Assembly: GCA_026388335.1 (NCBI GenBank)
Contig: JAPLJZ010000265.1
Location: 1 to 39,761 of the forward strand
From: Deltaproteobacteria bacterium
Lineage (GTDB): Bacteria; Desulfobacterota; Syntrophia; Syntrophales; UBA8958
DNA: 39,761 nt
Reading direction: 5' to 3'
Of the stretch, positions 19,326 through 37,141 are shown piece after piece; the first letter of the stretch is position 1, and every line of letters starts with the position of its first letter. Made by a program: the position numbers and the translations under genes. A model generated the notes under the pieces. That model was not told where the DNA came from and ran no database searches. It worked only from the letters and a program-made list of their open reading frames with translations.

Positions 19326-20404
19326 TTTTCATTTCTCCTTTTTCTTCTTCTGTCTGGGGCGGTCCAGTTTTCCGCCGCCCAGAGGTCAGGGTCGGTCTCG
19401 TAAATTGTCCCGGTATCGGCCCCACCCCAGACAGCCTCTTCCCTATGGACGCCGTGGAAATTGGCCCGGTCCAGACGGGTGTCGGAAAAGTCGGCCCCGG
19501 CAACGACGGCCCGGGAAAAATCGGTGTAAGGCAGCTCTGCCCGGCGAAAATCACATTTTTCCAGGCGGGTGTCGTCAAAAAGAGATTGTTCGATACGGGC
19601 GCGATGGAAAATTGCCCCCGTCAGACGGGCCTTGCTAAAACGGACCATAAAGAAATCTACGTCCGAGAAATCGGCCCCCGGTGCTGTGATCTCGCCAAAG
19701 GTTACATATTTACCCCTGGCTTTGGTAAACTGCGCCGCCGTAAGGTCCGTGTTGGCAAAGCTGGTCTGGGTAAGATCCAAGCCAGAGAAGTTGGCCTCTT
19801 TCATATGACACTTGTCGAATATGGTCATGAACAGGATGCAGCCGGGAAAGCGCTGCTTTTCCAGTTTACTCTCCACGAGAAGCGCCTTGGTCAGATCCGT
19901 TCTATTGAAGATGGCCCCGGAGAAATCACTGCCGCCGGCCATGAGGCGGTTCAGATTAGCTCCCGTCAAGTCCATGGCGTTCAACTTACATTCATGAAGG
20001 GAGGCGTTAATGAAGGTGGTCCCCAGGCATTTAGCGCCCGTGAGATCACAGTTGCCTGCATACATATTGCCGAGGTCCGCCCCGGAGAGATCGGCACCGA
20101 CGAGGGAAACCTTCTGCAGCGAGGCGTCGGCAAGGACGGCCTTTCCCATCTGTGCGCCGGCGAGATCGACCTCATCAAACCGGCAGCCCGTCAAATCCGC
20201 CCCTGCCAGACCGGCGCCGGTGAGATTGACCCTGATCAGGGAGCTGTTGACAAGCTTTACCCCCTCCAGGTTCGCTTTTTGAAGCCGTACCCCCTCCAGA
20301 ATAATCCCGGAGAGGTCCTGGTGGGAAAGGTTTGCGCCCGTAAGATCCGCATCGTTCAACCCGCCGTCCCTTTTTATTTTTGCAATTATCTCGTCGGTGT
20401 TCAT
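19322..20404 (-). CDS. Pentapeptide-repeat protein of the T6SS cassette (left copy)
   Basis: 360 residues almost wholly of A(D/N)LXX pentapeptides (DADLTGANLSHQDLSG..., ...GADLTGCRFDEVDLAGAQMGKAVL...), forming a right-handed quadrilateral beta helix. A short N-terminal helix (MNTDEIIAKIKRDGG) is shared with the right copy. C-terminal HREEAVWGGADTGTIYETDPD. It has about 68 more residues than the right copy, from extra repeats in the first half. The ATG overlaps the DUF2169 gene stop. Role unknown; cargo or scaffold of the spike is a fair guess. Confidence 0.85.
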   Translation of the reverse strand: MNTDEIIAKIKRDGGLNDADLTGANLSHQDLSGIILEGVRLQKANLEGVKLVNSSLIRVNLTGAGLAGADLTGCRFDEVDLAGAQMGKAVLADASLQKVSLVGADLSGADLGNMYAGNCDLTGAKCLGTTFINASLHECKLNAMDLTGANLNRLMAGGSDFSGAIFNRTDLTKALLVESKLEKQRFPGCILFMTIFDKCHMKEANFSGLDLTQTSFANTDLTAAQFTKARGKYVTFGEITAPGADFSDVDFFMVRFSKARLTGAIFHRARIEQSLFDDTRLEKCDFRRAELPYTDFSRAVVAGADFSDTRLDRANFHGVHREEAVWGGADTGTIYETDPDLWAAENWTAPDRRRKRRNEK

Positions 20405-22956
20405 GGTTCCTGCCTGAGTTTTAACAAGGTTTTCTTGATATTGGCTCGGTCAAGATTTGTCCGCTGCATTTTGGCCTGATAAAAATCCACGCCATAGAGG
20501 TTGGAAAGCTTCAGGTCCGTGCGGGTGAGCGTGGCCTTCCGCAGTGATCCCTTAAAGAGATTGACGCCCGTGAGATTGGCGTTGGTCAAGTCGGCCTTCA
20601 TAAATTTCGTCTCCTTAGCCGTTGCCAGAATCATGATGGCCCCCGTCAAATCGCACTTGCTGAAATCGGCGCGGTCCAGCGTCGCCTCCATCATCTGGGC
20701 GCGGAGTAGTCGGGCACCCTCCCAGCAGGCGTCGGTTAAATCAGCGGCATTGAAGCGGGCGTCCGTGAGGGTGGTGTCGGCGTCGGCCCGCGAACCATTG
20801 AGGAGAGAGTACCCGAATTTGGTATGCTCTCCCGTAGCCCCGCTGAGGCGCAGGCCGGCGGCGTTGGCATCCATAAAAGAACAGTGGGTAAGCTTGGCCC
20901 CGGTGAAATCCCCATCCGCCAGCTCCGCGCCCGTCAAGTCGGCGTCGGTCATATTCACCTTGGCAAAAAGGGCCTTGGGGGCCGAGATCTTCTGCGCCCT
21001 GATTCCCTCCATAACGGCCGCCTCGAATATTGCCCCGGCGGCGCTTGCCCCGGAAAGATCTGCGTCGGTGAAATCCGCGCCGGTGAAATCCGCGCCCGAA
21101 AGCTGCGCCCCGGCTAAGCGGGCCTTCGCAAAACGGCCTCCAGAGGCGTCGGCCTGCTCCAGGTTCGCCTGGGCGAGGTCGGCGCCGGTGAAATCGGCGT
21201 CTTTGAGGATTGCGTCTTTAAAAATCGCCTTGGACAGCCCGCCGTTGGTGAAGATCGCCCCGGCCAAGACAGCTGCGGTGAAATCGGCCCCGGGCATTTT
21301 CCTGGCCGTAAAATCGAGACCTGAAAGGTCCAGGCCGCCGAGGGGTTCCCCTCGCCCGTAGCGGAGCATAACCTCCTCCACGGTAAGGGCAAGGCCCGCC
21401 GGGGGAGGAGGCGGTTCCGGCGCCGGTGCGAGAGAAGGAACTTGTGCTGATTTCTCAACCTTGGTTGCCGCCTGCTTTTCCAGGTTGTCGAGGGCAGCCA
21501 GGGATTCATGAACGAGTTTTTCCGTCTCCTTGAACTGCGCCTCGATCTCCGGTTTATGGATACCCGCCTTCCGCAGCCCGGCAATGATCTCGTCGGCGGA
21601 TGGCAAAGGCGCCTCCGGCTTCGGCGCCATGATTTTCTCGACGTCGGCGGCGGTGATCCCGAATTTTTTCATGAAAGCGGCGGTCTGCTTTTCCATGGCG
21701 ACCACGGCCATCCCCAATTCGTCCAGGGACCCGGCGGCCGCCCGTTCCTCCACAGGGAGAAACTGCTTCACTACGGCGTCCGGATCGAGGCCGGCCTTCT
21801 TCAGCATCGCGGCGGTCTTGGCTTCGAACTCCTGGGTTTCCTTGAGGAGGGCCGCCAATTCGGGGTGGATATCCGGTGCTTTTGCGGGCGCTGCCACCGG
21901 GGCAGGTTCCGGCGGCGGCGCTTCGGCGGCGGCTGCCGGTGCGGCTGCCGGCGACAGTTCTTCCTGAAACATCCGACCGTATTCTTCGATGGATTTCGGC
22001 GGTTCTCTCATGGATTCCCACTGGCCGTAAAGGTGGAGGACGTCCTCATATTCCTCGTCCGCCACGGCGACGGCCCCCCGATAGAGCAGAATACCGACTT
22101 CCCGATCCGGGAAGAGCCAGAGGGTCTCCGCCCGGCAGGGGACCTCCCTGAATATCTCCTTGTCCCCCTCTTTTTGATGGACGAAGAGACGGGCCCGCAA
22201 GGCGGGCAGGGTGGACTTTAGCAACGGCTTCCGAGGATGCATATTGACGATTTCGATCTTTTCATCGCCGGTGAAGAATCCCGGGAGGCGCTGATCCTCC
22301 GGGGCGGCGTTGAACAGCTCCCAGTTCGTGTCCTTGGGGAAATGGGGCCAGTCTTCCAGCAGCCACTTGTCATCAACCTTGCCTATGTGGCGCAGCCGCT
22401 GCGGCCAGGTCATGGGGTAGGCGGAGAAGCCGGCGGGTGGCGGCCGGTCCTGGGGAGATCCGACGAGATGGCGGGGGTCCTGGACATTGGGGAGGGGCCT
22501 TTCCCCCGTTGCGTCGGGGAGAGTCCCTTTTCCCAGTGGGTTTTCCGGGAAATCCGGACCACCGAAGGTGTTGGCGTAATTAACGGCCAGGTGGGTGAAT
22601 GGTTCGGGTTTCTCGGTGCCCACGAGGCCCCAGTAGTGATTGCCGAAAACGGCCAAGGTCTTCGTCAGGCCGCCGACATGAACGGATACCTCGATGGCCC
22701 GGACCGGCTGCGGGGCGAAGGCGCTCCCATAGACGAGAAATTCCCCCCGGACCTTGGGGACGCCGAAATCGAAAATCTCCTCTTTGTCCAAGGCCGCCTC
22801 GATGACGGGCCACATATCCTGCTCGTTGAGGAGGCGGTTCGGGGCGGCCTCATCCAGGGTAAAGCAGGCACAGGCGGCTAAGCTGAGACGGCATTGACCG
22901 TCAATTTGCATACTCTTGAACATCTGGGCCAAATTTTGCGGTTTGATGATTTTCAT
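20401..22956 (-). CDS. DUF2169 T6SS effector-loading domain fused to pentapeptide repeats (left copy)
   Basis: 851 residues. Residues about 1-310: DUF2169 (FDFGVPKVRGEFLVYGSAFAP, PFTHLAVNYANTFGGPDFPENP, LFPDREVGILLYRG). Then a Pro/Ala-rich linker (about 325-360), a helical region with two DPDAV/TAADVEKIM-type segments (about 360-510), and pentapeptide repeats from about 560 to the end. DUF2169 proteins act as adaptor/chaperones that place effectors on VgrG (shown for Agrobacterium Tde2). The right copy has the same length. It follows vgrG by 18 nt and overlaps the pentapeptide gene. Confidence 0.88.
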   Translation of the reverse strand: MKIIKPQNLAQMFKSMQIDGQCRLSLAACACFTLDEAAPNRLLNEQDMWPVIEAALDKEEIFDFGVPKVRGEFLVYGSAFAPQPVRAIEVSVHVGGLTKTLAVFGNHYWGLVGTEKPEPFTHLAVNYANTFGGPDFPENPLGKGTLPDATGERPLPNVQDPRHLVGSPQDRPPPAGFSAYPMTWPQRLRHIGKVDDKWLLEDWPHFPKDTNWELFNAAPEDQRLPGFFTGDEKIEIVNMHPRKPLLKSTLPALRARLFVHQKEGDKEIFREVPCRAETLWLFPDREVGILLYRGAVAVADEEYEDVLHLYGQWESMREPPKSIEEYGRMFQEELSPAAAPAAAAEAPPPEPAPVAAPAKAPDIHPELAALLKETQEFEAKTAAMLKKAGLDPDAVVKQFLPVEERAAAGSLDELGMAVVAMEKQTAAFMKKFGITAADVEKIMAPKPEAPLPSADEIIAGLRKAGIHKPEIEAQFKETEKLVHESLAALDNLEKQAATKVEKSAQVPSLAPAPEPPPPPAGLALTVEEVMLRYGRGEPLGGLDLSGLDFTARKMPGADFTAAVLAGAIFTNGGLSKAIFKDAILKDADFTGADLAQANLEQADASGGRFAKARLAGAQLSGADFTGADFTDADLSGASAAGAIFEAAVMEGIRAQKISAPKALFAKVNMTDADLTGAELADGDFTGAKLTHCSFMDANAAGLRLSGATGEHTKFGYSLLNGSRADADTTLTDARFNAADLTDACWEGARLLRAQMMEATLDRADFSKCDLTGAIMILATAKETKFMKADLTNANLTGVNLFKGSLRKATLTRTDLKLSNLYGVDFYQAKMQRTNLDRANIKKTLLKLRQEP

Positions 22957-22974: not shown

Positions 22975-25821
22975 TTATCCTAATTTGATGAACCCTGCCC
23001 CGTCGACCTCCAGAGGCCCTGCGTGAAAGACCCCTGCCTGGTTGAAAGTCACATTGATGCCTACATTCGAGACTTCTATACCGTTTTGGGCATTGGGACT
23101 TGCCATGATGACACTGTTTTGATCTACTTCCATCGAAGCGCCGTGCCTCATTAGAAAGTGGACGCCGTCGTTATTCACGGTAACGATTCCACCGCCGCCC
23201 TCCTTTTGCAGGATGGCCTGATCGGCGTCAATGGTCAGTTGGCCTCCATCGTTTTCGATTTTTTCAATGACAACAGATTCTCCTTCCCACATCATGATAT
23301 GGTAAGAATCCTCATTATTGATTTCAACGGATGTTGAAACACCAGTCGGCATAATTTTAAGGAATGAAGTATATTCTTCGTCGGCGCCGATGCCCATTTG
23401 GATGCCGTCGTTGTCAACAAAATTGGAATCCATCACACCGGCGTGGATTTTAATTCCCGAGTCATCCAGTTCAATCTGGGATATAGGATTGGTTAATCCC
23501 GTGTTCAGCTTTTTTATCAGATACTCCAGGGCCGCTACCTGCAGAGCCGTTCCCACCACGATGGGGGCCATGCCGACCCCCATCTGCTTCATGGCGTCAA
23601 CGCCGCTGGCCTCATCGGGAAAAACGAGAGCGCCGAGATCGCCGCCCGCGGCTGCGAGGAGCGCCGCCACCGCAGCGCCGCCAAAGACAAGGGTTTTGGC
23701 CAGGGTAGACAGTACAGCCTTCTCACCAAAGGGGAGACCGGCAGAAATTGTTATCTTTTCCGTGCCCATCAGTTCATCTTCGTCCTTGATGGTATCCTTG
23801 GTTTTTCCGAACTCAACGTGATGGCCTGCTCTGAATTCAAGATTACCGGCTAATTCAAAGGCAGTTTTGACGGCCAACGCGAATTCCGAGCTTGTGCCCA
23901 GAATGGCGTCCAGCCTGGAGCCGATGGTCACGTAGTTCTCCGAGCCGATGACGAAGGAATCCTCCTGCCCCAGGACCAGCTCATGCTTGTCCCCCGACGA
24001 CTTAACGTGCATGACGCTGCCTGGTTCTTTACCGGATTCGCCTGTGTCTCCCTTCTCTCCGGTATCCCCTGTGTTTCCCGTATCGCCCTTATCGCCTTTT
24101 TGCCCTTTAAAGGCCCCTTCCTGAGTTCCTTCTCCTCCCTGCCCCAGATAAATCCAGTTGCCCTTACTTCCAAAAGGGCTGAAAAGATACATGAATTCCT
24201 TCCCCGGGGTATCGTCCATCACAAATTGATTGCCCCCCGGGGTCTTGATTACATGCTGTTTCGGATTATTATCCGTAACCACGTTGAAGTTCTGGGAGTT
24301 GAAGACGGCGCCGCTGATGACGGGCAGATCGGGATCGCCGTCCCGGAAGGAGAGGACGACCTCGACCCCTTTGTGAAGGGGGAAGTTCATGCCGTGGGTC
24401 TTGTTGTCCGTCCCGGCATAAGGGCTCGCCATCCGCACATGATATTTGTCCGTACTCTTCCCCCATTTCTTGCTAAAGTCATCGCCCTCTTTCTCCAGAG
24501 CGAAAGGAAGGCGTACCTTATAGCGGCCGAAGGTCGCGTCGATATCAGGCGTTTCCGTCGACAGAGTCCCGTCGATAACCGCATTCATGGTCGCGTGGAT
24601 CTTCGGTTTGGGGGTCAGGCGCTGGGGGCGGTACTGCACCGCCGCCGGGATCATCGTAAAGGTGTTGTTGTACTCGAATTCCTCCTCGATTCCCGTCAGG
24701 GGCTGCTTGCCCTCATGGTCGGCATGGATGATCAGGTAATCGCCGGAAAAGGTCTGACCGGAATCCTCAATGGTAATCAATGTCCCGGGGGTCAGGCCCG
24801 GTCCCGAGGCTATCCCGTAATAAACCTTGGTCTGGCAGAAGATCTCTTCGGCCCTGATCCCGGCCAGGGTCTGTCCCTCTTCCGTGGTGCTGAAGTTCTC
24901 TCCATAGATCGTCTGGACCCTTCCTGTATTTTCGGTTTTAGGGCCCACATCCGCCGTCGCCGAGATGGTCCCCATCCCCGCCTTGTCGTAATTGTAATTC
25001 CTCAATACCACCTTCGCCGGAAAGGCCGCCTGGTGCATGATCATGGTAAATATCGTCTCCGGGGCCGGACCGGGGCCGGGGGCCCCCGCCTGCTTATACT
25101 GCAACGTCTTCTTGGCCGGGGAATGGGATACTTTCGAGTCGCTTACGATCATCTTTTCCGACTTCACGTCCTGCAAGCTTTCGTGCCAGGTCTGATCCTG
25201 CACATAATAATAATAAACGCCTTCCCTCTCCATCAGGCGCTGAAGAAAATTGAGGTCGCTCTCTTCATACTGACATACATAGGACCAGCGATTGTACCCC
25301 CCCGGCAAGGGATCATAATGGTTCCCCGTCAACTTCAGTTCATAGTCGAGAGAAGTGAAATCGTTGTCCTTCATGACGCCGTCGATGATATCGGAGAACT
25401 TCTTCCCGACATAAATATCCGAGCGCGTGTTGAGGTAAGGAAGGAACATCTTCGCCCGGAGCCTGAGTTCATACTGGGTGTAGTCGCCTACCCGCTTGAC
25501 CTGGCGAAATTCCGTGACGATGCCGTGATAATAGGCGAAATGCTCCTGGACGACGATGCATAAGACGGCCGGGCGCAGCAGCACCTCTCCGAGCAAGGAC
25601 GGTATATTGTCCGTCGGGGAACGGAGGGTGACGTAGAAGTCATAGACAAACGAGAGATTCTCGTTCCCCGTAAACGAGATCACCTCGAATACCGGCTTGA
25701 CGGTATCCTTATTGGTGTAAATGAGGCTGAAGGTAAAATAATTGCCGGCCCCCTCGGTATTGCCTTCCTCCTCGGTCTTGGCGGCGTTACCCGTCAGATT
25801 GTCCCAAGTATCCCGTTCCAT
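22975..25821 (-). CDS. vgrG: VgrG spike protein with collagen-like insert and C-terminal extension (left copy)
   Basis: 948 residues; trimeric T6SS spike (gp27/gp5-like). The gp27-like part carries NRWSYVCQYEESDLNFLQRLMEREGVYYYY-type signature; the OB/gp5 part has ATFGRYKVRLPF, FPLHKGVEVVLSFRDGDPDLPVISGAVFNSQN and GGNQFVMDD. Residues 573-599 are nine collagen-like G-X-Y triplets (GQKGDKGDTGNTGDTG...), missing in the right copy. Residues about 705-770 are hydrophobic, with GGAAVAALLAAAGGD and VVGTALQVAALEYLI, followed by a beta-helical tail. Start ATG preceded by GGGAGG. Any effector activity of the extension is not known. Confidence 0.93.
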   Translation of the reverse strand: MERDTWDNLTGNAAKTEEEGNTEGAGNYFTFSLIYTNKDTVKPVFEVISFTGNENLSFVYDFYVTLRSPTDNIPSLLGEVLLRPAVLCIVVQEHFAYYHGIVTEFRQVKRVGDYTQYELRLRAKMFLPYLNTRSDIYVGKKFSDIIDGVMKDNDFTSLDYELKLTGNHYDPLPGGYNRWSYVCQYEESDLNFLQRLMEREGVYYYYVQDQTWHESLQDVKSEKMIVSDSKVSHSPAKKTLQYKQAGAPGPGPAPETIFTMIMHQAAFPAKVVLRNYNYDKAGMGTISATADVGPKTENTGRVQTIYGENFSTTEEGQTLAGIRAEEIFCQTKVYYGIASGPGLTPGTLITIEDSGQTFSGDYLIIHADHEGKQPLTGIEEEFEYNNTFTMIPAAVQYRPQRLTPKPKIHATMNAVIDGTLSTETPDIDATFGRYKVRLPFALEKEGDDFSKKWGKSTDKYHVRMASPYAGTDNKTHGMNFPLHKGVEVVLSFRDGDPDLPVISGAVFNSQNFNVVTDNNPKQHVIKTPGGNQFVMDDTPGKEFMYLFSPFGSKGNWIYLGQGGEGTQEGAFKGQKGDKGDTGNTGDTGEKGDTGESGKEPGSVMHVKSSGDKHELVLGQEDSFVIGSENYVTIGSRLDAILGTSSEFALAVKTAFELAGNLEFRAGHHVEFGKTKDTIKDEDELMGTEKITISAGLPFGEKAVLSTLAKTLVFGGAAVAALLAAAGGDLGALVFPDEASGVDAMKQMGVGMAPIVVGTALQVAALEYLIKKLNTGLTNPISQIELDDSGIKIHAGVMDSNFVDNDGIQMGIGADEEYTSFLKIMPTGVSTSVEINNEDSYHIMMWEGESVVIEKIENDGGQLTIDADQAILQKEGGGGIVTVNNDGVHFLMRHGASMEVDQNSVIMASPNAQNGIEVSNVGINVTFNQAGVFHAGPLEVDGAGFIKLG

Positions 25822-25947: not shown

Positions 25948-26724
25948 CTAAGACAGGGCTACCACGTGGACCTCCGCATCTGCGGCGGCGGCATAAGGAC
26001 CAAAGAGCAGTTTATCGGGGATGCCCTGAACGCGCACGTAATAGGACATGGCGCCGTCGAGGTGATTTTGGGCGGCCCAGGTGTTAAACTCCTCTTCCCC
26101 AAGTTGGACCTTCATGCCCTTCATGGCATACTCCAGGACGGTCCGGGCAGGAATCCCGTCCGCCGGTCCGACGCCATGGACATCGATATCCGCCCCGTGG
26201 ACGCCGAACATGGCGCCGTCCCAAGGGATATCCTTCGGCGGCCCCACCTCGAACCACAGGCCGATGCCGTGCAGGGCGTGGAGATTGAGGCGGTATCCCG
26301 GGTCAAGGGGTGTAGCGGGTCGGTTGGCCAGGGCCACGATCTTTGGTCCCAGCGTTGCCGCGGCGAAGGGAATGACCTCTGCGCCCCGGAAGAGGGTGGG
26401 AAGCGTCTCCGGATCGATCGTTCCCTCCGTGGGGACAAGGAGGATCGGAAACCCCAACCCTTTTTGATGTTGAACGGCAAGGGCGAGCAGCGAAAGACCT
26501 TGCCGAACGGAAGGGGTTTGCCATGAGGCCTCCGTGCCGATAATTATCCAGAGGGCCATATCCTTGGCGGCAAGGGGTTCCAGGGCGCTGTCCCAGGCCA
26601 TCTTCTTCAGGTCGTCCAGCCAGAAATGCCCATCCACGGCGAGCCCATAAGTCTTGACTACGCTCATCATCTTTTGGACCTTTTCCTGGTCCTTGTCCAA
26701 GGCGCTGATCCAGATCTTTTTCAT
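25948..26724 (-). CDS. Unrecognised protein of the T6SS operon, N-terminus TIR-like
   Basis: 258 residues, cytoplasmic by appearance (no signal or membrane segment). Residues 1-101 read like a TIR fold: strand KIWISAL, helix, GLAVDGHFWLDDL (BB-loop-like), LAAKDMALWIIIGTEASW, then helix and FPILLVPTEG. The Glu expected for NADase activity is not evident at the WxxxE-like position. The C-terminal 150 residues (GLWFEVGPPKDIPWDGAMFG, VRVQGIPDKLLFGPYAAAADAEVHVV) match nothing I know. Strong GGAGGT start site. It lies between the sheath gene and the scar, and could be cargo or regulator. Confidence 0.6.
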   Translation of the reverse strand: MKKIWISALDKDQEKVQKMMSVVKTYGLAVDGHFWLDDLKKMAWDSALEPLAAKDMALWIIIGTEASWQTPSVRQGLSLLALAVQHQKGLGFPILLVPTEGTIDPETLPTLFRGAEVIPFAAATLGPKIVALANRPATPLDPGYRLNLHALHGIGLWFEVGPPKDIPWDGAMFGVHGADIDVHGVGPADGIPARTVLEYAMKGMKVQLGEEEFNTWAAQNHLDGAMSYYVRVQGIPDKLLFGPYAAAADAEVHVVALS

Positions 26725-26767: not shown

Positions 26768-28378
26768 TTACCAGGAAAAGGTGAAGGCCAGTTTCCTGGA
26801 ATCCGGGGACACCGCCTTCGGGGGAGTGAGGGCAATATCCAGGGGCAGCGGCGCCTCTTCCTCCTGCTTGTGACCTTCAGGGTAGGGGCCGACGGTTACC
26901 CACAGGTCGCCCGGCGGTTCCTGTTCCGTTGCATCAAAAAAGGCCATCAGGGCCTCGGTGACGAAACTCACCGGTTCCGTTTCCCTGTCGCTTTCCTCAT
27001 AGGCATCCCGCAGCCTGATCAGAAAACCTATAATTCGGGAAAGGAACATCTGGGAAAGGAGGGATTCGCCGGAGGCGACAGCCGCCTTGGGTATGAAGGC
27101 CATGTCCTGCCCCGAGGCCCCTGACAGGGGCGTGACGCCGATTTCCACAAACTGCCGGATTCGGTCGTCCGGAAAAATCGTCTCCGTGGCCGAGGCTGTT
27201 TCATCCCCTTGGTCAGACACGGCAAGATCCTTCATGCGTACGCGCATATAGTCGGTCAGGCGCGAGGGCCAGCCAAACTGGTTGACGCTCTGCGCGGCCA
27301 GAGTTCCCAGTGCCCAGACCGGGCTGATCCACAGGGGTTCCGTCTCCGTGAAGGCGACGGAACGGGGTCGGTTGTTTTCTCCATAGGGGGCGCGGGTAAG
27401 AAAACGGTTGCAGGTCAGGGTCAGCCATTGTCCCGACGGTTGTTCCCTCAGTTTGCGCCATTTGGCATAGACGGCGTCGTCGAGATGGTTTTTGAGATAG
27501 GGCAGGCGGTGCAGCTCCCGCCAGTTGACCAGATGGAAAAAAGCGGGGGAGATCCATGCCGCCGTCGGGGTGAGTAGTGTTGCCGCAAAGACGGCGATTT
27601 TTCCCAGCGTCTCGACGCCGCCGGGGGTGTTGTCCAGGGGCAGGTCGATGAGGATGAGGTCGGGGGTATCCGCAGCAAGTTCGAGTGCCAGGTATTCCAG
27701 GGTCGCAGTAAGGCTCTCCGCCGAGGCCGGGACGATTTTCAATACGATCTTTCCCCCTTCCTTAACATCGCCCCGGCGGACGAGGCATTCCACTCCCCGC
27801 CAGGCCGCCTCGAAGGCCCGGAATTCTTCGTTGTTAAAGATACAGTCGATATTTGCCGACAAGAGGTCATCAATCTTCCTTTTCCAGTCCGCGGGACCTC
27901 CAGCGTTCCTTGGCCCTCCCTGATCTGACGCGACGGGCATGGCCACCATGGAGAGAATGTCGTCGACGGCGCTGTCGTGGCGGACTGCCTGTTGTGCAGA
28001 CGCCGTGGGGATGGAAAGGTCCAGGAGAAGATGTGGCCAGGCGGATTGTACCTGGGCGGCGATATCAGCTGGGGTGGCGCCGCTGGTGTGGCCCTTGGCG
28101 ATGAATTCCCCGGCGTCGCAGAGATCCTTGAGATAGGGTGTAGTCTGGATCAGGCCGTCCGGGGTGAGATCTCTTAACCCGGACGGTTGCAGGGTCAGAC
28201 CCCCGGGCGGGCAGATGTCCGTAGGCGCCGGAATCCAGAGCCGGGGAGACAGTTGACCAAAAGCCTCTTGGAGGGTTGGGGTTTCTACGGGGACGATGTT
28301 TACGGAAAATCCCGTCTCCGGTACGGGGCTGAAGGGACCTAATGCGAGAATAGTGTAGGGCGGGGGGATTGTCTTCAT
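26768..28378 (-). CDS. Fused TssB-TssC T6SS contractile sheath protein
   Basis: 536 residues. The first about 125 residues have TssB features: PPYTILALGPFSP, then VETPTLQEAFGQLSPRL and LRDLTPDGLIQTTPYLKDL. From about 135 the TssC/VipB core follows: FRAFEAAWRGVECLVRR, DLILIDLP, ISPAFFHLVNWRELHRL, YAKWRKLREQPSG, LTLTCNRFLTRAPYG and NQFGWPSRL. TssB and TssC are normally separate genes whose products build the sheath around Hcp. No other core T6SS gene is in the window. It begins 11 nt after the receptor-channel gene, so both share a transcript. Confidence 0.82.
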   Translation of the reverse strand: MKTIPPPYTILALGPFSPVPETGFSVNIVPVETPTLQEAFGQLSPRLWIPAPTDICPPGGLTLQPSGLRDLTPDGLIQTTPYLKDLCDAGEFIAKGHTSGATPADIAAQVQSAWPHLLLDLSIPTASAQQAVRHDSAVDDILSMVAMPVASDQGGPRNAGGPADWKRKIDDLLSANIDCIFNNEEFRAFEAAWRGVECLVRRGDVKEGGKIVLKIVPASAESLTATLEYLALELAADTPDLILIDLPLDNTPGGVETLGKIAVFAATLLTPTAAWISPAFFHLVNWRELHRLPYLKNHLDDAVYAKWRKLREQPSGQWLTLTCNRFLTRAPYGENNRPRSVAFTETEPLWISPVWALGTLAAQSVNQFGWPSRLTDYMRVRMKDLAVSDQGDETASATETIFPDDRIRQFVEIGVTPLSGASGQDMAFIPKAAVASGESLLSQMFLSRIIGFLIRLRDAYEESDRETEPVSFVTEALMAFFDATEQEPPGDLWVTVGPYPEGHKQEEEAPLPLDIALTPPKAVSPDSRKLAFTFSW

Positions 28379-28389
28379 GGTTTTTGTCC

Positions 28390-29553
28390 TTATTCGTCAC
28401 TTGTCACGGGTTTATGTTTCTTTTCCCTGCCGATGACAATGTGCCTTGCTTCGAAATTACTGTCCAGACCATAACGGCTCAGGATGGATTCCCATACCGG
28501 TTCATCGATAATCTTCAGCAGCGATATGTTGATCGGTTTGCGCAGGGGGCTGTTGTGGGGCATGCCAAAGGCAATCACGATCTCTTTCAGGCTGGTCGGG
28601 TGCACGCTTATGATTCCCCGGTATTTTCCCTCTGCGTAATATTGCAGCGTCGCCTCATCGTAAATGAAGCCGTCTATTTTTCTACTGACGAGTGCCGCTA
28701 AGACTTCCTCTTCACCCTTGAGAAACATCGTCCGGCTGCCAATTTTCTCGACAATGGAAGCAGGCACCGACCCTGCTTCCGTTCCCAAGTGCATTCTTCT
28801 CATCTTATCGACGCCGAATTTCGTTTCACTGAGATGATGCGTCGTAAGGGAAGAGCTCAGGGACGCAATAAAGGCACTTAAAGCCAGGGCACAGATCAGC
28901 ATCCAAAAGAGCCCCAGTACCCGGCCGCTAACAGATTTCAAGCTGACGCCGAAACAGACACCTGACGTCATGGTCGACCCCACCCAGTAAATGCCGGAAC
29001 CAATACCCCGGATCAGCCCTTCTCCAAAGTGCTCGGGGTTGCTCTTCCGCTCGATTCGCCAAAAGATAAATCCGAGTAAAAACAATATCATCAGCAGGAT
29101 AGCGATAATCTTCAAAGTGCCCCAGGAAACGAATATCTTCAGGGCTGCCAGCCAGGGGTGGTCTTCCGTATCGTGAAGGGTTGCCACGGCTACGCGGGTG
29201 CTGGCAATAGGCACTGTAAACTCAAAAAGCTGTTCACGCTGTGAGGTAATGATAACGGCGTCGGCCGATAAATCTATAGAGCCGTTTTGAAGTGAATTCA
29301 AGACTTCTTCCTGAGTCATCTCCTTCAGGGAATAATCCAGTTTCAAGTCCCGGGCGATTTGGCGCCAGAGATCAACCGTTAATCCGGCCCATTCCCCTTG
29401 CTCATTCTTGAATGTATAAGGCGGATCATCGGCAATGCCAACGACGAGCTTTTTCCCCGCTGCCGACGCAGGCGTCCACCCGGCATCCATGATCAAAACG
29501 CCCGTCTGCATAACCACGAAACACAGGATCGGTATCAAGACACGCTTTAACAT
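28390..29553 (-). CDS. Prokaryotic ionotropic glutamate receptor-like ligand-gated channel
   Basis: 387 residues. Signal peptide about 1-32; ligand-binding lobe 1 (LVVGIADDPPYTFKN...GLTVDLWRQIA...DLSADAVIITSQRE), membrane helix M1 (about 146-166), pore loop GSGIYWVGSTMTSGVCFG (about 185-202), M2 (about 212-235, CALALSAFIASLSSSLT) and lobe 2 (FLKGEEEVLAALVSRKIDGFIYDEATLQYY). This is GluR0 architecture, but the TVGYGD potassium filter is replaced by a SGVCFG-like sequence. Ligand and ion are unknown. First gene of the left T6SS operon behind a good sigma-70 promoter. Confidence 0.87.
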   Translation of the reverse strand: MLKRVLIPILCFVVMQTGVLIMDAGWTPASAAGKKLVVGIADDPPYTFKNEQGEWAGLTVDLWRQIARDLKLDYSLKEMTQEEVLNSLQNGSIDLSADAVIITSQREQLFEFTVPIASTRVAVATLHDTEDHPWLAALKIFVSWGTLKIIAILLMILFLLGFIFWRIERKSNPEHFGEGLIRGIGSGIYWVGSTMTSGVCFGVSLKSVSGRVLGLFWMLICALALSAFIASLSSSLTTHHLSETKFGVDKMRRMHLGTEAGSVPASIVEKIGSRTMFLKGEEEVLAALVSRKIDGFIYDEATLQYYAEGKYRGIISVHPTSLKEIVIAFGMPHNSPLRKPINISLLKIIDEPVWESILSRYGLDSNFEARHIVIGREKKHKPVTSDE

Positions 29554-29586
29554 CGGTCACCCTTTCACCGGAAAATGCACCTTTCT

Positions 29587-29608
29587 CCATCCCCTTCGAG
29601 GGGGATGG
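29587..29608 (-). other. 5' leader hairpin of the receptor-sheath operon
   Basis: Perfect 8-bp stem (CCATCCCC/GGGGATGG) with a six-base loop, about 17-38 nt downstream of the predicted start of transcription. It could stabilise the 5' end or be a small repetitive palindrome. Confidence 0.5.
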
Positions 29609-29631
29609 TAGAGTAGGGGATGAGTTTAGAA

Positions 29632-29660
29632 AACATACGATGGACCGCCCGATGTGTCAA
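29632..29660 (-). promoter_or_regulatory. Sigma-70 promoter of the left T6SS operon
   Basis: Minus strand: TTGACA (29660-29655), 17-bp spacer, TATGTT (29637-29632). Consensus -35, good -10, about 80 bases before the receptor-like gene's ATG. Confidence 0.75.
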
Positions 29661-29725
29661 TGAGATATTGACTGTTAAATATGAAGTGTGGCGCCATGCT
29701 TATATTGCCGTGGACTGAAATAATT

Positions 29726-29754
29726 TTGACATGAGGGGCGAATTTCTTTATACT
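29726..29754 (+). promoter_or_regulatory. Sigma-70 promoter of the right T6SS operon
   Basis: TTGACA (29726-29731), 17-bp spacer, TATACT (29749-29754). Predicted start near 29761, giving a leader of about 100 bases before the DUF3540 ATG with GAGGTG as Shine-Dalgarno. It faces away from the left operon promoter; the two -35 boxes are about 65 bp apart. The rest of the 29554-29864 gap shows no gene. Confidence 0.78.
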
Positions 29755-29864: not shown

Positions 29865-30521
29865 ATGACAAATGTTGCCGTATTGAGAAAGAATGTGCCC
29901 GATTGGCCTGTGTCCCTGGCCTATGGTTTGGTAATGGAGTGGGAGGAGGACCGTTATCGGATCGAGACCGACGACGGGACATCACTCTGGGTGCGCAAGG
30001 CGGAGGGATGTCTCCTCCAGCCGGACATTGGGGATCGGGTGCTGATAACCGCTGATGCCGCCGTAGGCGGCTACATCCTTATGGTTCTGGATAAAGTCGG
30101 GGCATGTTATGAGATGGTATTTCCTGGGGAGGCCAGCCTGCGGACGGAAACGGGACCGCTAAAGCTTCAGGCAGATAACGTTATTGTTCGCGGCGACAAA
30201 AGCGTTGCCCTGGAAGCGCCGGAGATTGAAATTACCGGTATCTCCGGAAAGGTCCGCTTTGCGGCCTGCTCCCTCCTGGCAAACATCATGGAGGTGCGGA
30301 GCAAAAAGGCCGTCCAGGTTATCGATATCCTTGACAGCATAGTCGGCAGAGTCACGGAGCGGGTCCGGGACAGTTTCCGCTGGATCGAAAATTTGGAACA
30401 GATCAGGGCTGGCAGAATCCGGACAATAGTTAAGGATCGCTTCTCCGTCAAGGCGGGCCATGCCTCCCTGATCTCGGAAGAGGAAGTTACCATCGACGGT
30501 AAGAAGATACACATCGGTTAG
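29865..30521 (+). CDS. DUF3540 T6SS-associated protein (right copy)
   Basis: 218 residues. Same layout as the left copy: WEEDRYRIETDDGTSLWVRK, LLQPDIGDRVLITADAA, a central beta repeat, then GRVTERVRDSFRWIENLEQIRAGRIRTIVKDRF and EEEVTIDGKKIHIG. The N-terminal half has diverged strongly from the left copy while the last 90 residues are close. First gene of the right operon; DUF4150 follows after 18 nt. A 52-bp piece of this gene's equivalent survives in the scar at 25893-25944. Confidence 0.85.
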   Translation: MTNVAVLRKNVPDWPVSLAYGLVMEWEEDRYRIETDDGTSLWVRKAEGCLLQPDIGDRVLITADAAVGGYILMVLDKVGACYEMVFPGEASLRTETGPLKLQADNVIVRGDKSVALEAPEIEITGISGKVRFAACSLLANIMEVRSKKAVQVIDILDSIVGRVTERVRDSFRWIENLEQIRAGRIRTIVKDRFSVKAGHASLISEEEVTIDGKKIHIG

Positions 30522-30539
30522 CATAGGAGAGATCATATC

Positions 30540-30935
30540 ATGTTTGCCGTTACCAAAGAAAATGGGCAGCTCATGGCCATGCCTGATGTCTGCCTGACTC
30601 CGGCCCCGCCGGCCCCGCCCATTCCGACTCCCTACCCCAACGTCGGCATGCCCCAGATGGGCAACCCGGTCACGACCAAGGTTCTGATCAATGGTATGCC
30701 CGCGCTGACGAAGGCCTCGAAGATATCACCGACAAACGGTGACCAGGGAGGCGTCAACCAGGGCGTTGTTTCCGGCAAGATCATGGGGCCCGCCGAATTC
30801 CTGATGGGGAGTACAAAGGTGAAATTGGAAGGCAATCCGGCCGTGTTCCTCGGCAATATGACCAAACAGAACGACGGCAACGCCGTAGGTTCCGTACTGG
30901 CGCCGAGCCAGAACAAGGTCATGATCATGGGATGA
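30540..30935 (+). CDS. PAAR-like DUF4150 T6SS spike-tip protein (right copy)
   Basis: 131 residues, the same length as the left copy. Motifs MPDVCLTPAPPAPPIPTPYPN, MGNPVTTKVLINGMPALTKASK, GDQGGVNQGVVSGKIMGPAEF and MTKQNDGNAVGS, with end SQNKVMIMG. Likely caps the right-operon VgrG, whose gene starts 51 nt downstream. The strong conservation between copies, in contrast to DUF3540, suggests selection on a shared tip. Confidence 0.88.
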   Translation: MFAVTKENGQLMAMPDVCLTPAPPAPPIPTPYPNVGMPQMGNPVTTKVLINGMPALTKASKISPTNGDQGGVNQGVVSGKIMGPAEFLMGSTKVKLEGNPAVFLGNMTKQNDGNAVGSVLAPSQNKVMIMG

Positions 30936-30986: not shown

Positions 30987-33695
30987 ATGGGACAGAATAC
31001 GTGGAACAATTTGATGGACGATGGCGGTGTTCCGGACAATTATTTTACCTTCAGCTTCATTTACAACGACAAGGATACTGTCAAGCCGGAATTCGAGGTG
31101 ATCAAGTTTGCGGGGGATGAAAATCTTTCCTTTGTTTATGATTTTTATATCACTCTCCGTTCCACGACGGACAATATACCCGCCTTGCTCGGGGAGGTGC
31201 TGCTGCGGCCTGCCGTTTTATGCATGGTTGTCCAGAAGCATTTTTCCTACTATCACGGCATCGTCACGGAGTTTCGTCAGATCCAGCGGGTGGGCGATTA
31301 CACTCAGTATGAGCTCCGGCTTCGCTCGAAGATGTTTCTTCTTTACCTCAATACACGCTCGGACATTTATGTTGGGAAGCCGTTTGGTGCTATCATCGAT
31401 GGCGTCATGAAGGATAACGGCTTTACTTCTCTCGACTATGAGCTGAAATTAACGGGTACCCATTATGATCCTTTGCCGGGGGGATATAATCGCTGGTCCT
31501 ATGTGTGCCAGTATGAGGAGAGCGACCTCAATTTTCTTCAGCGCCTGATGGAGCGGGAAGGGGTCTATTATTATTTTGAGCAGGACCAGACCTGGCATGA
31601 TAGTTTGCAGGATGTGATGCCGGAAAAGATGGTAATCACGGATACGCGCTTGTCCCATCCCCCGGCGACGAAGACGTTGCAGTATAAGTCTGTGGGCGCT
31701 CCCGGCTCCGGCCCGGCGCCGGAGACGATATTTACCATGATCATGCACCAGGCAGCCTTTCCGGCGAAGGTTATCTTGAGGAATTACAATTACAACACGG
31801 CGGGGATGGGGACCATGTCGGCATCGGCGGATGTGGGCTCTGCGACCGATGTAGCGGGCAGGGTGCAGACCATCTATGGGGAGAATTTCAGCACTGCCGA
31901 GGAAGGTCAGACTCTGGCCGGGATCAGGGCCGAAGAGATATTCTGTCAGACCAAGGTTTATTACGGCATGGCTTCAGGACCGAGCCTGATCCCCGGAACT
32001 TTGATTACCATTGACGATCCCGGTCAGACCTTTTCCGGTGATTACCTGATCATCCATGCCGCACATGAGGGTCAGCAACCGCTGACGGGGGTTGAGGAGG
32101 AATTTCAATATAACAATACCTTTACGATGATTCCGGCAGCGGTGCAGTTCCGATCCCAGCGCCTGACGCCCAAGCCAAAGATACACGCGACTATGAATGC
32201 GGTTATCGACGGGGATTTATCGACGGAGACGCCGGACATCGATCCGACCTTGGGCCGCTACAAGGTGAGGCTTCCCTTTGCGCCGGAGGAGGGGGGCGAC
32301 GATTTCAGCAATAAGTGGGGGAAGAGTACGAGTTCTTATCATGTGCGGATGGCGAGCCCTTTCGCCGGGACGAGCGACAAGACTCACGGCATGAATTTCC
32401 CGCTGCACAAGGGGGCGGAGGTTGTCCTCTCCTTCCGGGACGGCGACCCCGATCTGCCCGTCATCAGCGGCGCCGTCTTCAACTCCCAGGACTTCAACGT
32501 GGTTACGGATAAAAATCCTAAACAGCACGTAATCAAGACCCCCGGGGGCAATCAATTTGTCATGGACGATACCACGGGGGAGGAATACATCTATCTCTTC
32601 AGCCCCTTCGGAAAGCAGGGCCATGGTATCTATATAGGCAAGGGGGGAGAGGATGAAGGGGCGTTTCACGTCAAGTCGTCGGGTAACAAGCATGAAGTGG
32701 TCATGGGACAGGAAGACTCAATCGTTATCGGTTCGGAGAACTATGTGACCATCGGTTCCAAGGCGGAATTCATGCTGGGCACGGCCTCGGAATTCACTAT
32801 GGCCATGAAGAGCGCCTTCGAATGGGCAGGGACCATCGAGTGCAAAGCCGGCCATCATGTCGAATTCGGTAAGACCAAGGAGACCATCAAGGATAAAGAC
32901 GATCTGCTGGGCACGGAAGAAGTAGTGATTTCCGCCGGTCTTCTTCCTGTGGATAAGGCTGTGCTGACCACGTTACAGAAAACCATGGTCTTTGGCGGTG
33001 CCGCCGTAGGGGCCCTGCTGGCTGCGGCCGGCGGTGATATCGCCAGTGCCGCTTTCCCCGATGAGGAAAGCGGAGTTGCGGCCATGAAACAGATGGGGGT
33101 CAGCATGGCGCCCATCGCGGTGGGAGCGGCTGCGCAGGTGGCCGCTCTGGCGTATCTGGTTAATAAGCTGAACACCGAACTCACAAATGCTATCAGCAAA
33201 ATTGAGATGAATGACACGGGAATCAAAGTTTACGCCAGCCCCATCAGTGCTCAGCTTGTATACAATAACGGCATCCAGTTGCTGATCGGCGCCACGATGG
33301 GGACCCCGACATCTTCCATCAAGATGACCCCGGGACTCAACGAAAGCATCACTATTCAAAAGGAGCAGGCCGGGGGCAAGATTACCGTTGATGCCCAGGG
33401 GGTGGCCATTGAGCAGCAACCCGCAGCCACCAGCAGCGTCAAGGTCACCAGTGCCAGTGTGGCTATTGAAAAGACCGGGGGTGGAAAAATTACCTTAGCG
33501 GCTGCCAATGCCACCATGGAGCAACAGCCGAACGGCGGAAAAGTCGTGGCCACGGCCAACGATATCACGATCCAGCAGGGTACCGATTCTATAAGTATAA
33601 GTGGGGCGTCCGGTATCAAGCTTAGTTTCGCGGGCGGAAACCTGCACGCCGGTCCCCTCGCCATCAACCCCGCCGGTATCATCCAATTGGGATAA
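30987..33695 (+). CDS. vgrG: VgrG spike protein (right copy)
   Basis: 902 residues. gp27-like and gp5-like parts match the left copy closely (SDLNFLQRLMEREGVYYYF, TLGRYKVRLPFAPEE, FPLHKGAEVVLSFRDGDPDLPVISGAVFNSQ). No collagen-like insert: GGEDEGAFHVKSSGNKHEVV runs straight on. Hydrophobic segment at about 665-728 (GGAAVGALLAAAGGD, AVGAAAQVAALAYLVNKL). The tail (about 770-902) is a series of short beta repeats rich in (V/I)xxxxxxxxIEQQP-like units that differs from the left tail. Start ATG preceded by AGGGAG. Confidence 0.93.
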   Translation: MGQNTWNNLMDDGGVPDNYFTFSFIYNDKDTVKPEFEVIKFAGDENLSFVYDFYITLRSTTDNIPALLGEVLLRPAVLCMVVQKHFSYYHGIVTEFRQIQRVGDYTQYELRLRSKMFLLYLNTRSDIYVGKPFGAIIDGVMKDNGFTSLDYELKLTGTHYDPLPGGYNRWSYVCQYEESDLNFLQRLMEREGVYYYFEQDQTWHDSLQDVMPEKMVITDTRLSHPPATKTLQYKSVGAPGSGPAPETIFTMIMHQAAFPAKVILRNYNYNTAGMGTMSASADVGSATDVAGRVQTIYGENFSTAEEGQTLAGIRAEEIFCQTKVYYGMASGPSLIPGTLITIDDPGQTFSGDYLIIHAAHEGQQPLTGVEEEFQYNNTFTMIPAAVQFRSQRLTPKPKIHATMNAVIDGDLSTETPDIDPTLGRYKVRLPFAPEEGGDDFSNKWGKSTSSYHVRMASPFAGTSDKTHGMNFPLHKGAEVVLSFRDGDPDLPVISGAVFNSQDFNVVTDKNPKQHVIKTPGGNQFVMDDTTGEEYIYLFSPFGKQGHGIYIGKGGEDEGAFHVKSSGNKHEVVMGQEDSIVIGSENYVTIGSKAEFMLGTASEFTMAMKSAFEWAGTIECKAGHHVEFGKTKETIKDKDDLLGTEEVVISAGLLPVDKAVLTTLQKTMVFGGAAVGALLAAAGGDIASAAFPDEESGVAAMKQMGVSMAPIAVGAAAQVAALAYLVNKLNTELTNAISKIEMNDTGIKVYASPISAQLVYNNGIQLLIGATMGTPTSSIKMTPGLNESITIQKEQAGGKITVDAQGVAIEQQPAATSSVKVTSASVAIEKTGGGKITLAAANATMEQQPNGGKVVATANDITIQQGTDSISISGASGIKLSFAGGNLHAGPLAINPAGIIQLG

Positions 33696-33710: not shown

Positions 33711-36266
33711 ATGAAGATTATCAAACCGCAAAATCTTGGTCTCCTTTTCAAAAGCTGCTTTATTGATAAAAGAGCCTGCCTTTCCATCGCTGCCTGCGCC
33801 TGTTTCACCCTGGATACATCCCTTTCCGACCGTTTGCTTACGGAGCCGGAGATGTGGCCCATCATCGGGGCGGCCTTAGATGAAGACGAAATCTTTGACT
33901 TCGGCGTTCCCAAGGTCCGCGGGGAATTTCTCGTCTATGGTTCCGGCTTTGCACCAAAGCCTGTTCATGGCTTGGAAGTCCATGTTCGCGTCGGTAACTT
34001 ATCCAAGACCCTGGCCATTTTCGGCAACTACCACTGGAGCCTGGCAGGGGCGCAGAACCCCGAACCTTTCACACATATGCCCATTAATTATGGAAATGCC
34101 TTCGGCGGTCCGAACCTGCCAGAGAATCCCCTTGGGAAAGGTATGGAACATGATGGCACGGGGAAAACCCCAATCCCCAATGTCCAGGATCCCCGTCATC
34201 TCATGGGGTCTCCCGGCGACAGACCCAAACCGGCCGGTTTCACCGCCTACCTGCTGACATGGCCCCAGCGGCTTGGCTACTTGGGTAAGGTGGATCAAAA
34301 GTGGTTACTTGAAGACTGGCCCCATTTCCCCAGGGATACGGATTGGGAATACTTCAACACCGCCCCGGAGGATCAGCGCCTCGCCGGGTTCTTCAACGGT
34401 GAAGAGAAGGTGGAAATCCGCAACATGCATCCCCGGAAGCCGGTAATCCAATCAACCCTCCCGGCCTTGCGGGGTCGTCTCTTCGTTAACCAGAAAGAGC
34501 AGGACAGGGTGATATTCAAGGAGGTCCCCTGCCGGGCGGAGACGCTTTGGCTCTTTCCCGACCGGGAGATTGGCATTCTCCTCTACCGCGGCACTGTCGC
34601 CGTGGCAGAGGATGAGTATGAAGATGTGCTTCATTTTTATGCCCAATGGGAATCCCTCACAGATCAACCGAAATCCATTGAAGAGTATCGCCGGATGTTT
34701 GAGGAAAACCTGACCCCGACGGAAGCGAAGGCGGAAGCAGCGCCGGTGGAAACGCCGCTGGAATCAAAACCGGCCCCTGTACCGGCGCCGCCTGAGGCCC
34801 CGGACATCAAACCGGAATTGGCTTCTCTGCTCAAAGAAGCCCAGGAATTTGAAGCCAAAACCACGGCAATGCTGAAGCAGGCGGGCCTCGACCCGGATGC
34901 CGTGGTCAAGCAGTTTCCCCCTGTCGAAGCAAGGGCGGCGACAGGGTCCCTTGCCGACCTTGGAATGGCTGTTGCCGCCCTGGAAAAGCAGACCGCTGAG
35001 TTCATGAAAAAATTCGGCCTTACCGCCGCCGCCGTCGAGAAGATCATGGCGCCGAAGCCAGAGGCGCCTTTGAAATCTGCCGACGAGATCATCGCCGAAC
35101 TCAGGAAGGGAGGCTTTCATAAGCCGGAAATCGAGGCCCAACTCAAGGAAACGGAAAGGCTTGTTCAGGAATCCCTGACCTCCCTCGACAACCTTGAGAA
35201 GCAGGCGGCGGCCGAGGCCGCGCAAGCAGCTCAAGCCCCTCCCCCCGAACCGCCGATCCCTCCCCAGGCAGAGGCAGCCGTGACCCTGGAGTACGTCCTG
35301 GCAAAGTACTGGCAGGGAGAACCTTTGTGCAACCTTGACCTGACGGGGCTTGACTTTTCCGGTCAGGTGATGCCGGGGGCTGACTTTTCGAACTCTATCC
35401 TGGAGCGGGCCATCTTTAAGAAGTCAAAACTCACGGGCGCCCGTTTTACCGGCGCCTTGATGACGGAAACCGATTTCAGCGAAGCCGTCATGGATGATGC
35501 CTTGCTTAATCATGCCAGTTCCGGGAAAGCAAAGTTTGTGAAGGCTTCTATGCAAAGGGCCGATCTGACCGAAGGTGATTTTACTGCGTCCGACTTCACC
35601 GCTGTAAATCTTATGGAAGCCACGATGACTGAAACCATATTCGAAAAGGCAATCATGACGGAAGCGGAATGCATAAAAGCGAAGGCCCCCAGATCCCTGT
35701 TTGCCGGGGCTGATCTCAGGGAATCCAAGTTCGATGAAGCAGATCTCAGCGAAGCGGATCTCACGGGAGCGCAGATATCGCATGCGTCGTTTTTCCATGT
35801 CCGCGCCGACGGAATCAGGCTTTTTGGCGTCAAGGGAGATTCACCGTCATTTAGCGTCTCTTCCCTGAAAAAATCGCGGGCCGATAAAGATACAGAGATT
35901 ACGAACGGGCGCTTTTACCAAGCTGATCTGACAGACACCTCCTGGGAAGGGGTGAAGCTGGTCCGGGCACAAATGTACGAGGCAAAGCTGGATCGGGCGG
36001 ATTTTACCGGGGCGGATCTGTCCGGTGCCATTTTAATCAGGGCCGTTGCCAGAGAAGCCAAATTCGCCAAGGCAAATCTCGAAGGGGCAAATCTCGGGGG
36101 GATCAATCTCTTCAAAGGCTCTCTGCGCAAAGCAAACCTGATGTGGACGGACCTTAAGTTATCGAACCTTTACGGCGTTGATTTTTACCAGGCGAAGCTC
36201 AACAGAGCGAATCTTAAAGAGGCAAATATCAAAAGAACCCTGCTGTCATTGAATAAGGATGTATGA
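33711..36266 (+). CDS. DUF2169 domain fused to pentapeptide repeats (right copy)
   Basis: 851 residues, equal in length to the left copy. DUF2169 about 1-310 (FDFGVPKVRGEFLVYGSGFAP, PFTHMPINYGNAFGGPNLPENP, LFPDREIGILLYRG), Pro/Ala-rich linker about 330-355, helical region (LDPDAVVKQFPPVEARA, LTAAAVEKIMAPKPEAP), pentapeptide repeats from about 540 (NLDLTGLDFSGQVMPGADFS...). The repeat region has drifted more than the DUF2169 part. Predicted adaptor that delivers cargo to VgrG. Starts 16 nt after vgrG; overlaps the next gene (ATGA). Confidence 0.88.
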   Translation: MKIIKPQNLGLLFKSCFIDKRACLSIAACACFTLDTSLSDRLLTEPEMWPIIGAALDEDEIFDFGVPKVRGEFLVYGSGFAPKPVHGLEVHVRVGNLSKTLAIFGNYHWSLAGAQNPEPFTHMPINYGNAFGGPNLPENPLGKGMEHDGTGKTPIPNVQDPRHLMGSPGDRPKPAGFTAYLLTWPQRLGYLGKVDQKWLLEDWPHFPRDTDWEYFNTAPEDQRLAGFFNGEEKVEIRNMHPRKPVIQSTLPALRGRLFVNQKEQDRVIFKEVPCRAETLWLFPDREIGILLYRGTVAVAEDEYEDVLHFYAQWESLTDQPKSIEEYRRMFEENLTPTEAKAEAAPVETPLESKPAPVPAPPEAPDIKPELASLLKEAQEFEAKTTAMLKQAGLDPDAVVKQFPPVEARAATGSLADLGMAVAALEKQTAEFMKKFGLTAAAVEKIMAPKPEAPLKSADEIIAELRKGGFHKPEIEAQLKETERLVQESLTSLDNLEKQAAAEAAQAAQAPPPEPPIPPQAEAAVTLEYVLAKYWQGEPLCNLDLTGLDFSGQVMPGADFSNSILERAIFKKSKLTGARFTGALMTETDFSEAVMDDALLNHASSGKAKFVKASMQRADLTEGDFTASDFTAVNLMEATMTETIFEKAIMTEAECIKAKAPRSLFAGADLRESKFDEADLSEADLTGAQISHASFFHVRADGIRLFGVKGDSPSFSVSSLKKSRADKDTEITNGRFYQADLTDTSWEGVKLVRAQMYEAKLDRADFTGADLSGAILIRAVAREAKFAKANLEGANLGGINLFKGSLRKANLMWTDLKLSNLYGVDFYQAKLNRANLKEANIKRTLLSLNKDV

Positions 36267-37141
36267 ACACACAAGAATGTCTTGAAAAGATCAAAAAAGA
36301 TGGGGGAATCAAAGACGCCGACCTGACGGGCCTTGATTTTTCCGGATGCGAAATTGCCGAGGCCTTTTTCGAAAATGTTTCGCTTCGCGGCTGCATCTTT
36401 GCCGGCGCGACACTTTCCCGGGTTACGCTGTACCACTGTCTGCTAACCGGGACTGATTTCACGGGGGCAAATCTAAGCCGCATGATCGCCGGCGCATCCG
36501 ATATGACCACCGCCATTTTTCATCAAACCGATCTGACGAAAGCCTATTTCATGGAAACAAAGCTGGCCGGGCAGAAGTTTTTGAATTGTAACCTCAAAAT
36601 GATCATTCTGGAGAAGGCGGATCTCAAAGCCGCCGATTTTTCCCGTGCCGATATCACCCAGGCGAGCTTTGCCGGGGCGAATTTGACCGGGGCAATCTTC
36701 CAGGAGGCCCACGGTAAATATGTAAATTTTGTCGGCGCCAAGGCAGACAAGGCGGACTTCCATAGGGCAAACCTGCCTATGTCCAATTTCACGGAAGCGA
36801 AACTCAAAGTATCCAACTTTGCGGACGCCTCCCTCGCCCAATCCCTTTTTATTAAAGGGGATTGTACAGGGGCACAATTCGTGCGAGCCCGTTTGCCTTA
36901 CACCAATTTCTCTCACGCCATAGTAAAAGAAGCAGATTTTTCCCAGGCAGAGCTGACGTACGCGGACATGCATGCCGTCCTGATGCATGAAGCCAGGTGG
37001 GATGGGGCCGATACGAGTTCGATCTACAAAACGGATAAAGATCTCCTCGAAGCGGAACAATGGGAAGCAGGAGCTAAACTTAAAGAGATGAACGGAAGAG
37101 AGAGGTTATTGCCCGACAATGTCATTAATCGCATGCCATGA
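36263..37141 (+). CDS. Pentapeptide-repeat protein (right copy)
   Basis: 292 residues. N-terminal helix MNTQECLEKIKKDGGIKDADLTG as in the left copy, followed by pentapeptides (GADFTGANLSRMIAGASDM, ADLKAADFSRADITQASFAGANL). C-terminal half aligns with the left copy (HEARWDGADTSSIYKTDKDLLEAEQW); the first half lacks about 68 residues. Last gene of the right operon; no clear terminator after it. Confidence 0.85.
   Translation: MNTQECLEKIKKDGGIKDADLTGLDFSGCEIAEAFFENVSLRGCIFAGATLSRVTLYHCLLTGTDFTGANLSRMIAGASDMTTAIFHQTDLTKAYFMETKLAGQKFLNCNLKMIILEKADLKAADFSRADITQASFAGANLTGAIFQEAHGKYVNFVGAKADKADFHRANLPMSNFTEAKLKVSNFADASLAQSLFIKGDCTGAQFVRARLPYTNFSHAIVKEADFSQAELTYADMHAVLMHEARWDGADTSSIYKTDKDLLEAEQWEAGAKLKEMNGRERLLPDNVINRMP

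Follow-up and report, generated by a model that had tools for sequence, protein, structure and literature searches.

Does a ligand-gated channel take part in the use of a T6SS? The question is raised by a window of 39,761 nt (the whole stretch of DNA analyzed) from a bacterium of the order Syntrophales, in which a gene for a glutamate-receptor-like channel was annotated in a first pass as the first gene of a T6SS operon, a link of which no description was known. Our own literature text search for T6SS and ionotropic glutamate receptor (iGluR) likewise found no paper describing one. What bacterial iGluRs do for the cell is little understood, and a channel in an operon with weapon parts provides a rare concrete setting in which the role of such a protein could be tested. 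The genes and sites at the center of the question are as follows.

29726..29754 (+), divergent promoter-like TTGACA-N17-TATACT for spike module 2 (largely conserved)
29632..29660 (−), promoter-like TTGACA-N17-TATGTT ahead of the channel gene (kept in three species)
28390..29553 (−), iGluR-type ligand-gated channel, 387 aa (Pfam SBP_bac_3 and Lig_chan, hydropathy, conservation in relatives)
28948..28968 (−), TSGVCFG codons (residues 196–202), aligned with the site where other bacterial iGluRs have the K+ filter TVGYGD
28379..28389 (−), 11-nt gap between channel and sheath-fusion genes (length conserved, sequence nearly so)
26768..28378 (−), TssB-TssC-like single-chain sheath protein, 536 aa (Pfam VipB, L053 homologue, AF2 model)
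25948..26724 (−), HYP258, 258 aa, matching no known family and third in the unit (conserved beside the sheath fusion)

Identity of the Channel

The channel gene runs from an ATG at 29553 to the end of its stop codon at 28390. Its product was matched by SBP_bac_3 (1.5e-22, split over residues 36–362 with the membrane part inside) and by Lig_chan (1.1e-8; 35.4 bits against a cut-off of 30.8; residues 152–244), both above the Pfam cut-offs. The layout consisted of a signal peptide (~1–32), S1 (~36–130), M1 (~146–167), a pore loop (~186–205), M3 (~207–236) and S2 (~249–362). Hydropathy peaks were found only at 1–27, 134–170, and 203–238, that is, a signal segment, M1 and M3 with the loop between, and no M4; a cytoplasmic domain of notable size was not present. 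S1 and S2 each matched 2pyy, the ligand domain of a bacterial iGluR homologue, separately, and alignment showed R106 as the S1 Arg and D299 as the S2 Asp, the key amino-acid ligand residues of prokaryotic iGluRs (PMC2950845). A profile of the channel subfamily gave one end-to-end alignment with AMPA receptors (19–364, E 3.5e-18) and likewise with kainate receptors; from this comparison of the one subfamily, no closer kinship with the animal proteins is claimed. The AF2 model of the channel (pLDDT 37, from three near-identical sequences) was not used. The domain matches, layout and ligand residues thus bear out the proposed glutamate-receptor-like identity: judged by its sequence, the product of 28390–29553 is a prokaryotic iGluR-type channel with an amino-acid-binding domain split around M1–pore loop–M3, for which conduction is predicted. 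The second Lig_chan match in the same genome (contig C232) was shown to be an RCK K+ channel with Ion_trans_2 and TrkA_N, and no iGluR.

Pore Signature and Channel Subfamily

At the K+ filter position the channel has TSGVCFG, whereas T[TS]VGYGD or STVGYGD was found in L102, L104–L110, and L112–L114. The alignments showed no TVGYGD-type filter, by which Group 1 is recognized, and a pore region unlike known filters, as in Group 2; the filter sequence gives no selectivity prediction. Since non-K+ pores of bacterial iGluRs were recognized as 'Group 2' as early as 2010 (Ger et al., 2010, PMC2950845), the channel is no new kind. Its subfamily appears to fit this type by its pore features.

At the position of the TVGYGD filter, members of the subfamily carry G-x-C, mostly as SGVC, and pore loop and M3 are well conserved among them. 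The window channel and its nearest relatives formed one clade with 100/100 support, which occurs in Syntrophorhabdaceae and Syntrophales. These relatives (40–53% identity) were found in family f74 (with G303 and G327 = L063), in 10 of 39 genomes, and also in G108, a genome from another family of the window's order. Outside the Syntrophus-type lineage they stood alone beside unrelated genes in all loci examined. No description of the G-x-C signature or its clade was found in the literature searched.

Plasmid-borne candidates for channel relatives were set aside, showing only 28–29% identity and other filters. A tandem pair of subfamily iGluR genes was observed in G467 (L133:8333-10680), with the S2 Asp lost in both copies. 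A third iGluR type without GYG (family f79: G300, G369, and G410) was detected at L140:6550-8682, immediately following a gene that carries a TVGFGE motif like those of K+ channels.

The Sheath Fusion and HYP258

The neighboring gene starts with an ATG at 28378. Its product was matched by VipB of Pfam (1e-34), with no match to VipB_2, and scored far under the TssC equivalog cut-off (TIGR03355; 97.9 vs. 271.5 bits), which separates it from canonical orthologues. The homologue in L053 matched both TssB and TssC models, the former (TIGR03358) over L053 residues 23–115 at 5.1e-5, below the curated cut-off. An AlphaFold2 model built from 15 sequences (pLDDT 76, pTM 0.79) had a sheath-like fold over residues 1–527; it aligned with VipB chains (5mxn) over 161–525 (Z 18.6) and, from residue 4 on, with 8kee_C, representing the single-chain sheaths of phages and injection systems (Z 18.3). 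The VipB match, the TssB match in L053 and the model alignments together identify the product of 26768–28378 as a single-chain TssB-TssC homologue. It is an accessory fusion of the two and distinct from the main TssC.

The canonical T6SS cluster of the window genome was located on contig C74 (TssA, C, E, F, G, a TssH-type ATPase, and TssK). Because the main TssC and the core lie there, the supposed T6SS operon is an accessory operon; the channel is its first gene, with a sheath-type neighbor, as had been proposed.

HYP258 had no match in Pfam, NCBIfam, or PHROG; homologues (38–46%) recur in T6SS-type loci L065–L069. Further downstream, a 295-aa weak-cupin protein (16438-17325, −) has homologues (~34%) in L060, L062, L064, and L070, which adjoin the sheath fusion downstream or lie close by on that side, and is a possible unrecognized T6SS accessory protein. 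An anti-phage reading was discarded, as PADLOC gave no match for the channel, the sheath fusion or HYP258.

Conservation in Close Relatives and Transcription

The pair of channel and sheath fusion was also present in two congeneric genomes, G005 and G006, with 90% protein identity for the channel and 85% for the fusion in each, and with gene order and open frames kept. Values of dN/dS were 0.07–0.17 for the channel, 0.25–0.46 for the sheath fusion and 0.15–0.17 for HYP258; strong purifying selection thus acts on the channel. A fourth contig, G113:C382 (= L057, JAPLJQ010000363), carried the 3′ part of the channel gene, the fusion, HYP258, and the next genes in order (80–92%). However, G113 was assigned to a different family of the window's order and has 7% contamination, and L057 is therefore regarded as a misbinned or transferred contig and no independent case.

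All three genomes of the genus with the pair hold T6SS core genes. The five other genomes of the genus lacked both channel and sheath fusion, and an intact-looking T6SS core was found in only one of these five; among them, G002 has a T6SS core in spite of lacking the channel, and in G007 TssK is split over two frames. Loss of the core in G006, where TssC and TssF are missing, was considered; it was weakened by the presence of TssK 263 bases from a contig end.

The 11-nt distance between the channel and sheath genes, given in the first-pass annotation, was confirmed to the exact coordinate, and so was a consensus promoter ahead of the channel. The −35/−10 pair TTGACA-N17-TATGTT (29660–29632) lies 79 nt ahead of the channel ATG and is the sole minus-strand promoter-like site in 26500–30000, a region in which about two such sites, both strands together, are expected by chance. 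In G005 and G006 the 11-nt gap, both promoter hexamers and the 17-nt spacer are all kept, and the divergent promoter of the adjoining operon is retained in this intergenic block as well. Conservation of the channel promoter and gap in two relatives is beyond chance. A terminator or promoter between the genes had been named as evidence that would speak against the proposed link; a sequence scan detected no terminator-like site there, and the only minus-strand promoter-like site was the one upstream of the channel. With the channel proximal to the promoter, the two genes are likely co-transcribed, in line with the original proposal. In G006, an insert of ~150 bp (L050:9880-10027) was observed between promoter and channel gene; it contains CCCTCTTT/AAAGAGGG inverted repeats and resembles a small mobile or REP element.

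Spike Modules Flanking the Unit

Two spike modules were identified by domain matches, with protein naming after PMC13373197.

18290..18685 (−), PAAR-like protein, module 1
18699..19325 (−), DUF3540 protein (TvpC type), module 1
19322..20404 (−), pentapeptide protein (TvpB type), module 1
20401..22956 (−), DUF2169 + pentapeptide protein (TvpAB type), module 1
22975..25821 (−), VgrG, module 1 (Pfam/NCBIfam; absent at the same site in relatives)
29865..30521 (+), DUF3540 protein (TvpC type), module 2 (transcribed away from the channel gene; also kept in relatives)
30540..30935 (+), PAAR-like protein, module 2
30987..33695 (+), VgrG, module 2
33711..36266 (+), DUF2169 + pentapeptide protein (TvpAB type), module 2
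36263..37141 (+), pentapeptide protein (TvpB type), module 2

Both modules match class III Tvp systems (DUF2169 + pentapeptide, pentapeptide, DUF3540, PAAR-like, and VgrG), which load VgrG-PAAR spikes in Serratia (PMC13373197). The modules at 18290–25945 and 29865–37141 are diverged copies (PAAR 85%, VgrG 67%, TvpAB 63%, TvpC 45%, and TvpB 44%). Module 1 (18290–25945, 7.6 kb) was absent from the same site in G005, G006, and L057, in which sheath fusion and HYP258 are followed by a gene matching 17430–18161. The shared unit is therefore channel–TssBC fusion–HYP258, back to back with the spike operon. Module 1 would be either a recent gain in the window genome or a loss in the relatives, and its VgrG (22975..25821) is possibly read on from the channel operon, in the window genome only.

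No RNA family was found in the window. Elsewhere in it, 37669-39282 (−) encodes a sigma-70 region 1.1 domain joined to a NO VEIN C-terminal (TmtA/PDC-S36-like) domain, and a TMEM175-type K+ channel gene (13370-14086, −) overlaps 13986-15521 (−), the product of which combines an RsbW-like ATPase domain with an acetyltransferase-like part.

Wider Distribution of the Pairing

A genome scan for the sheath fusion yielded 17 loci. In four of them the fusion directly follows tssH; elsewhere it adjoins VgrG/Tvp genes or HYP258 homologues. The channel profile had no match in 13 more distant sheath-fusion loci or in L053, several of these loci ending at contig ends, and the idea of the channel as a standing part of sheath-fusion loci was rejected on this search (0/13 other loci). 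In a sample of 395 genomes of the phylum, Lig_chan matches were present in 33, none of them near a sheath gene except in the window's own genome; long sheath-fusion matches occurred in about 17 of the 395, most of which also had a canonical TssC. The expectation that the pairing is conserved in relatives thus held for G005 and G006, but not for the distant sheath-fusion loci, nor for the relatives of the channel, which stand alone. The pairing of channel and T6SS is a lineage-restricted new combination of known parts and is not general. Its simplest and most likely history would be a single recruitment, in one Syntrophus-type ancestor, of a channel gene that had stood alone. Since Syntrophus aciditrophicus was reported to have no T6SS (PMC10580878), the best-known cultured strain of the genus is unfit as a test host.

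Possible Role of the Channel

We see an about even chance that an iGluR-type channel with a non-K+ filter was recruited in one Syntrophus-type lineage as the leading gene of a T6SS accessory unit, with which it shares a transcript. A stand-alone copy would have been placed ahead of the TssBC fusion and HYP258, and the unit would be expressed from a promoter back to back with that of the VgrG/Tvp spike operon. A small periplasmic ligand, an amino acid or the like, would close the S1/S2 clamshell and thereby open the inner-membrane pore, and a cation flow or a change of membrane potential would be available during expression of the genes for the accessory sheath and spike; the shared promoter would put the channel in the membrane while these parts are made. 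We infer co-transcription, the ligand, amino-acid gating, conductance and any effect of the channel on the T6SS, and functional coupling would be plausible. If true, this would be, to our knowledge, the first ligand-gated ion channel controlling a secretion system. The more specific version, in which the channel senses amino acids released by neighbors or damaged kin and its ion flow is itself the trigger for deploying the accessory sheath and spike, is considered unlikely.

Almost as likely as recruitment with T6SS relevance, and quite possible in its own right, is that an orphan channel gene landed as a passenger between promoter and sheath fusion in the ancestor of a few species, is co-transcribed, and contributes to general amino-acid or ion physiology while playing no part in T6SS. 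Conservation is limited to one clade (three species and one possibly misbinned contig), so that shared history alone could hold the genes together. The unrelated neighbors of the other subfamily channels examined, the 0/13 count among other sheath-fusion loci and the T6SS core of G002 without a channel all agree with such a landing. On the other hand, gap, promoter and gene order persisted through the gain or loss of a neighboring 7.6-kb module, and the five congeners without the sheath fusion are also without the channel, both of which speak against a passenger.

Recruitment as a sensor that does not conduct ions is rather improbable. Here the protein would bind an amino acid and act by contact with the sheath fusion or the membrane complex, its pore being closed or vestigial. 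That the pore loop resembles none of the filters whose selectivity is known, that the G467 tandem pair has even lost the S2 ligand residue, and that the sheath fusion is the only partner conserved directly beside the channel would be consistent with this. But the pore loop and M3 are conserved across the subfamily, as expected if the pore matters, and a sizeable cytoplasmic domain to signal through is missing.

Comparison with Known Systems

Recruitment of a channel to the accessory unit, as preferred here, would join parts with known counterparts. The channel resembles Group 2 prokaryotic iGluRs (PMC2950845) in its S1-M1-P-M3-S2 layout, its Arg/Asp ligand residues and a pore unlike the K+ filter, and differs from them in forming its own G-x-C clade and in its T6SS neighborhood in one lineage. 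GluR0 of Synechocystis (Slr1257; ligand domain PDB 1ii5) and other GYG-type 'Group 1' iGluRs have the same clamshell and channel layout, whereas their K+ filter TVGYGD is absent from the window channel. The channel's neighbor gene shares the VipB domain and sheath fold of the T6SS sheath TssB/TssC (VipA/VipB), but the fusion is one chain instead of two and is additional to the canonical set. Finally, TvpAB, TvpB, TvpC, PAAR-like protein, and VgrG of the class III Tvp modules of Serratia marcescens (PMC13373197) occur twice in the window, which differs from that system in having two diverged copies that flank the channel/sheath-fusion unit.
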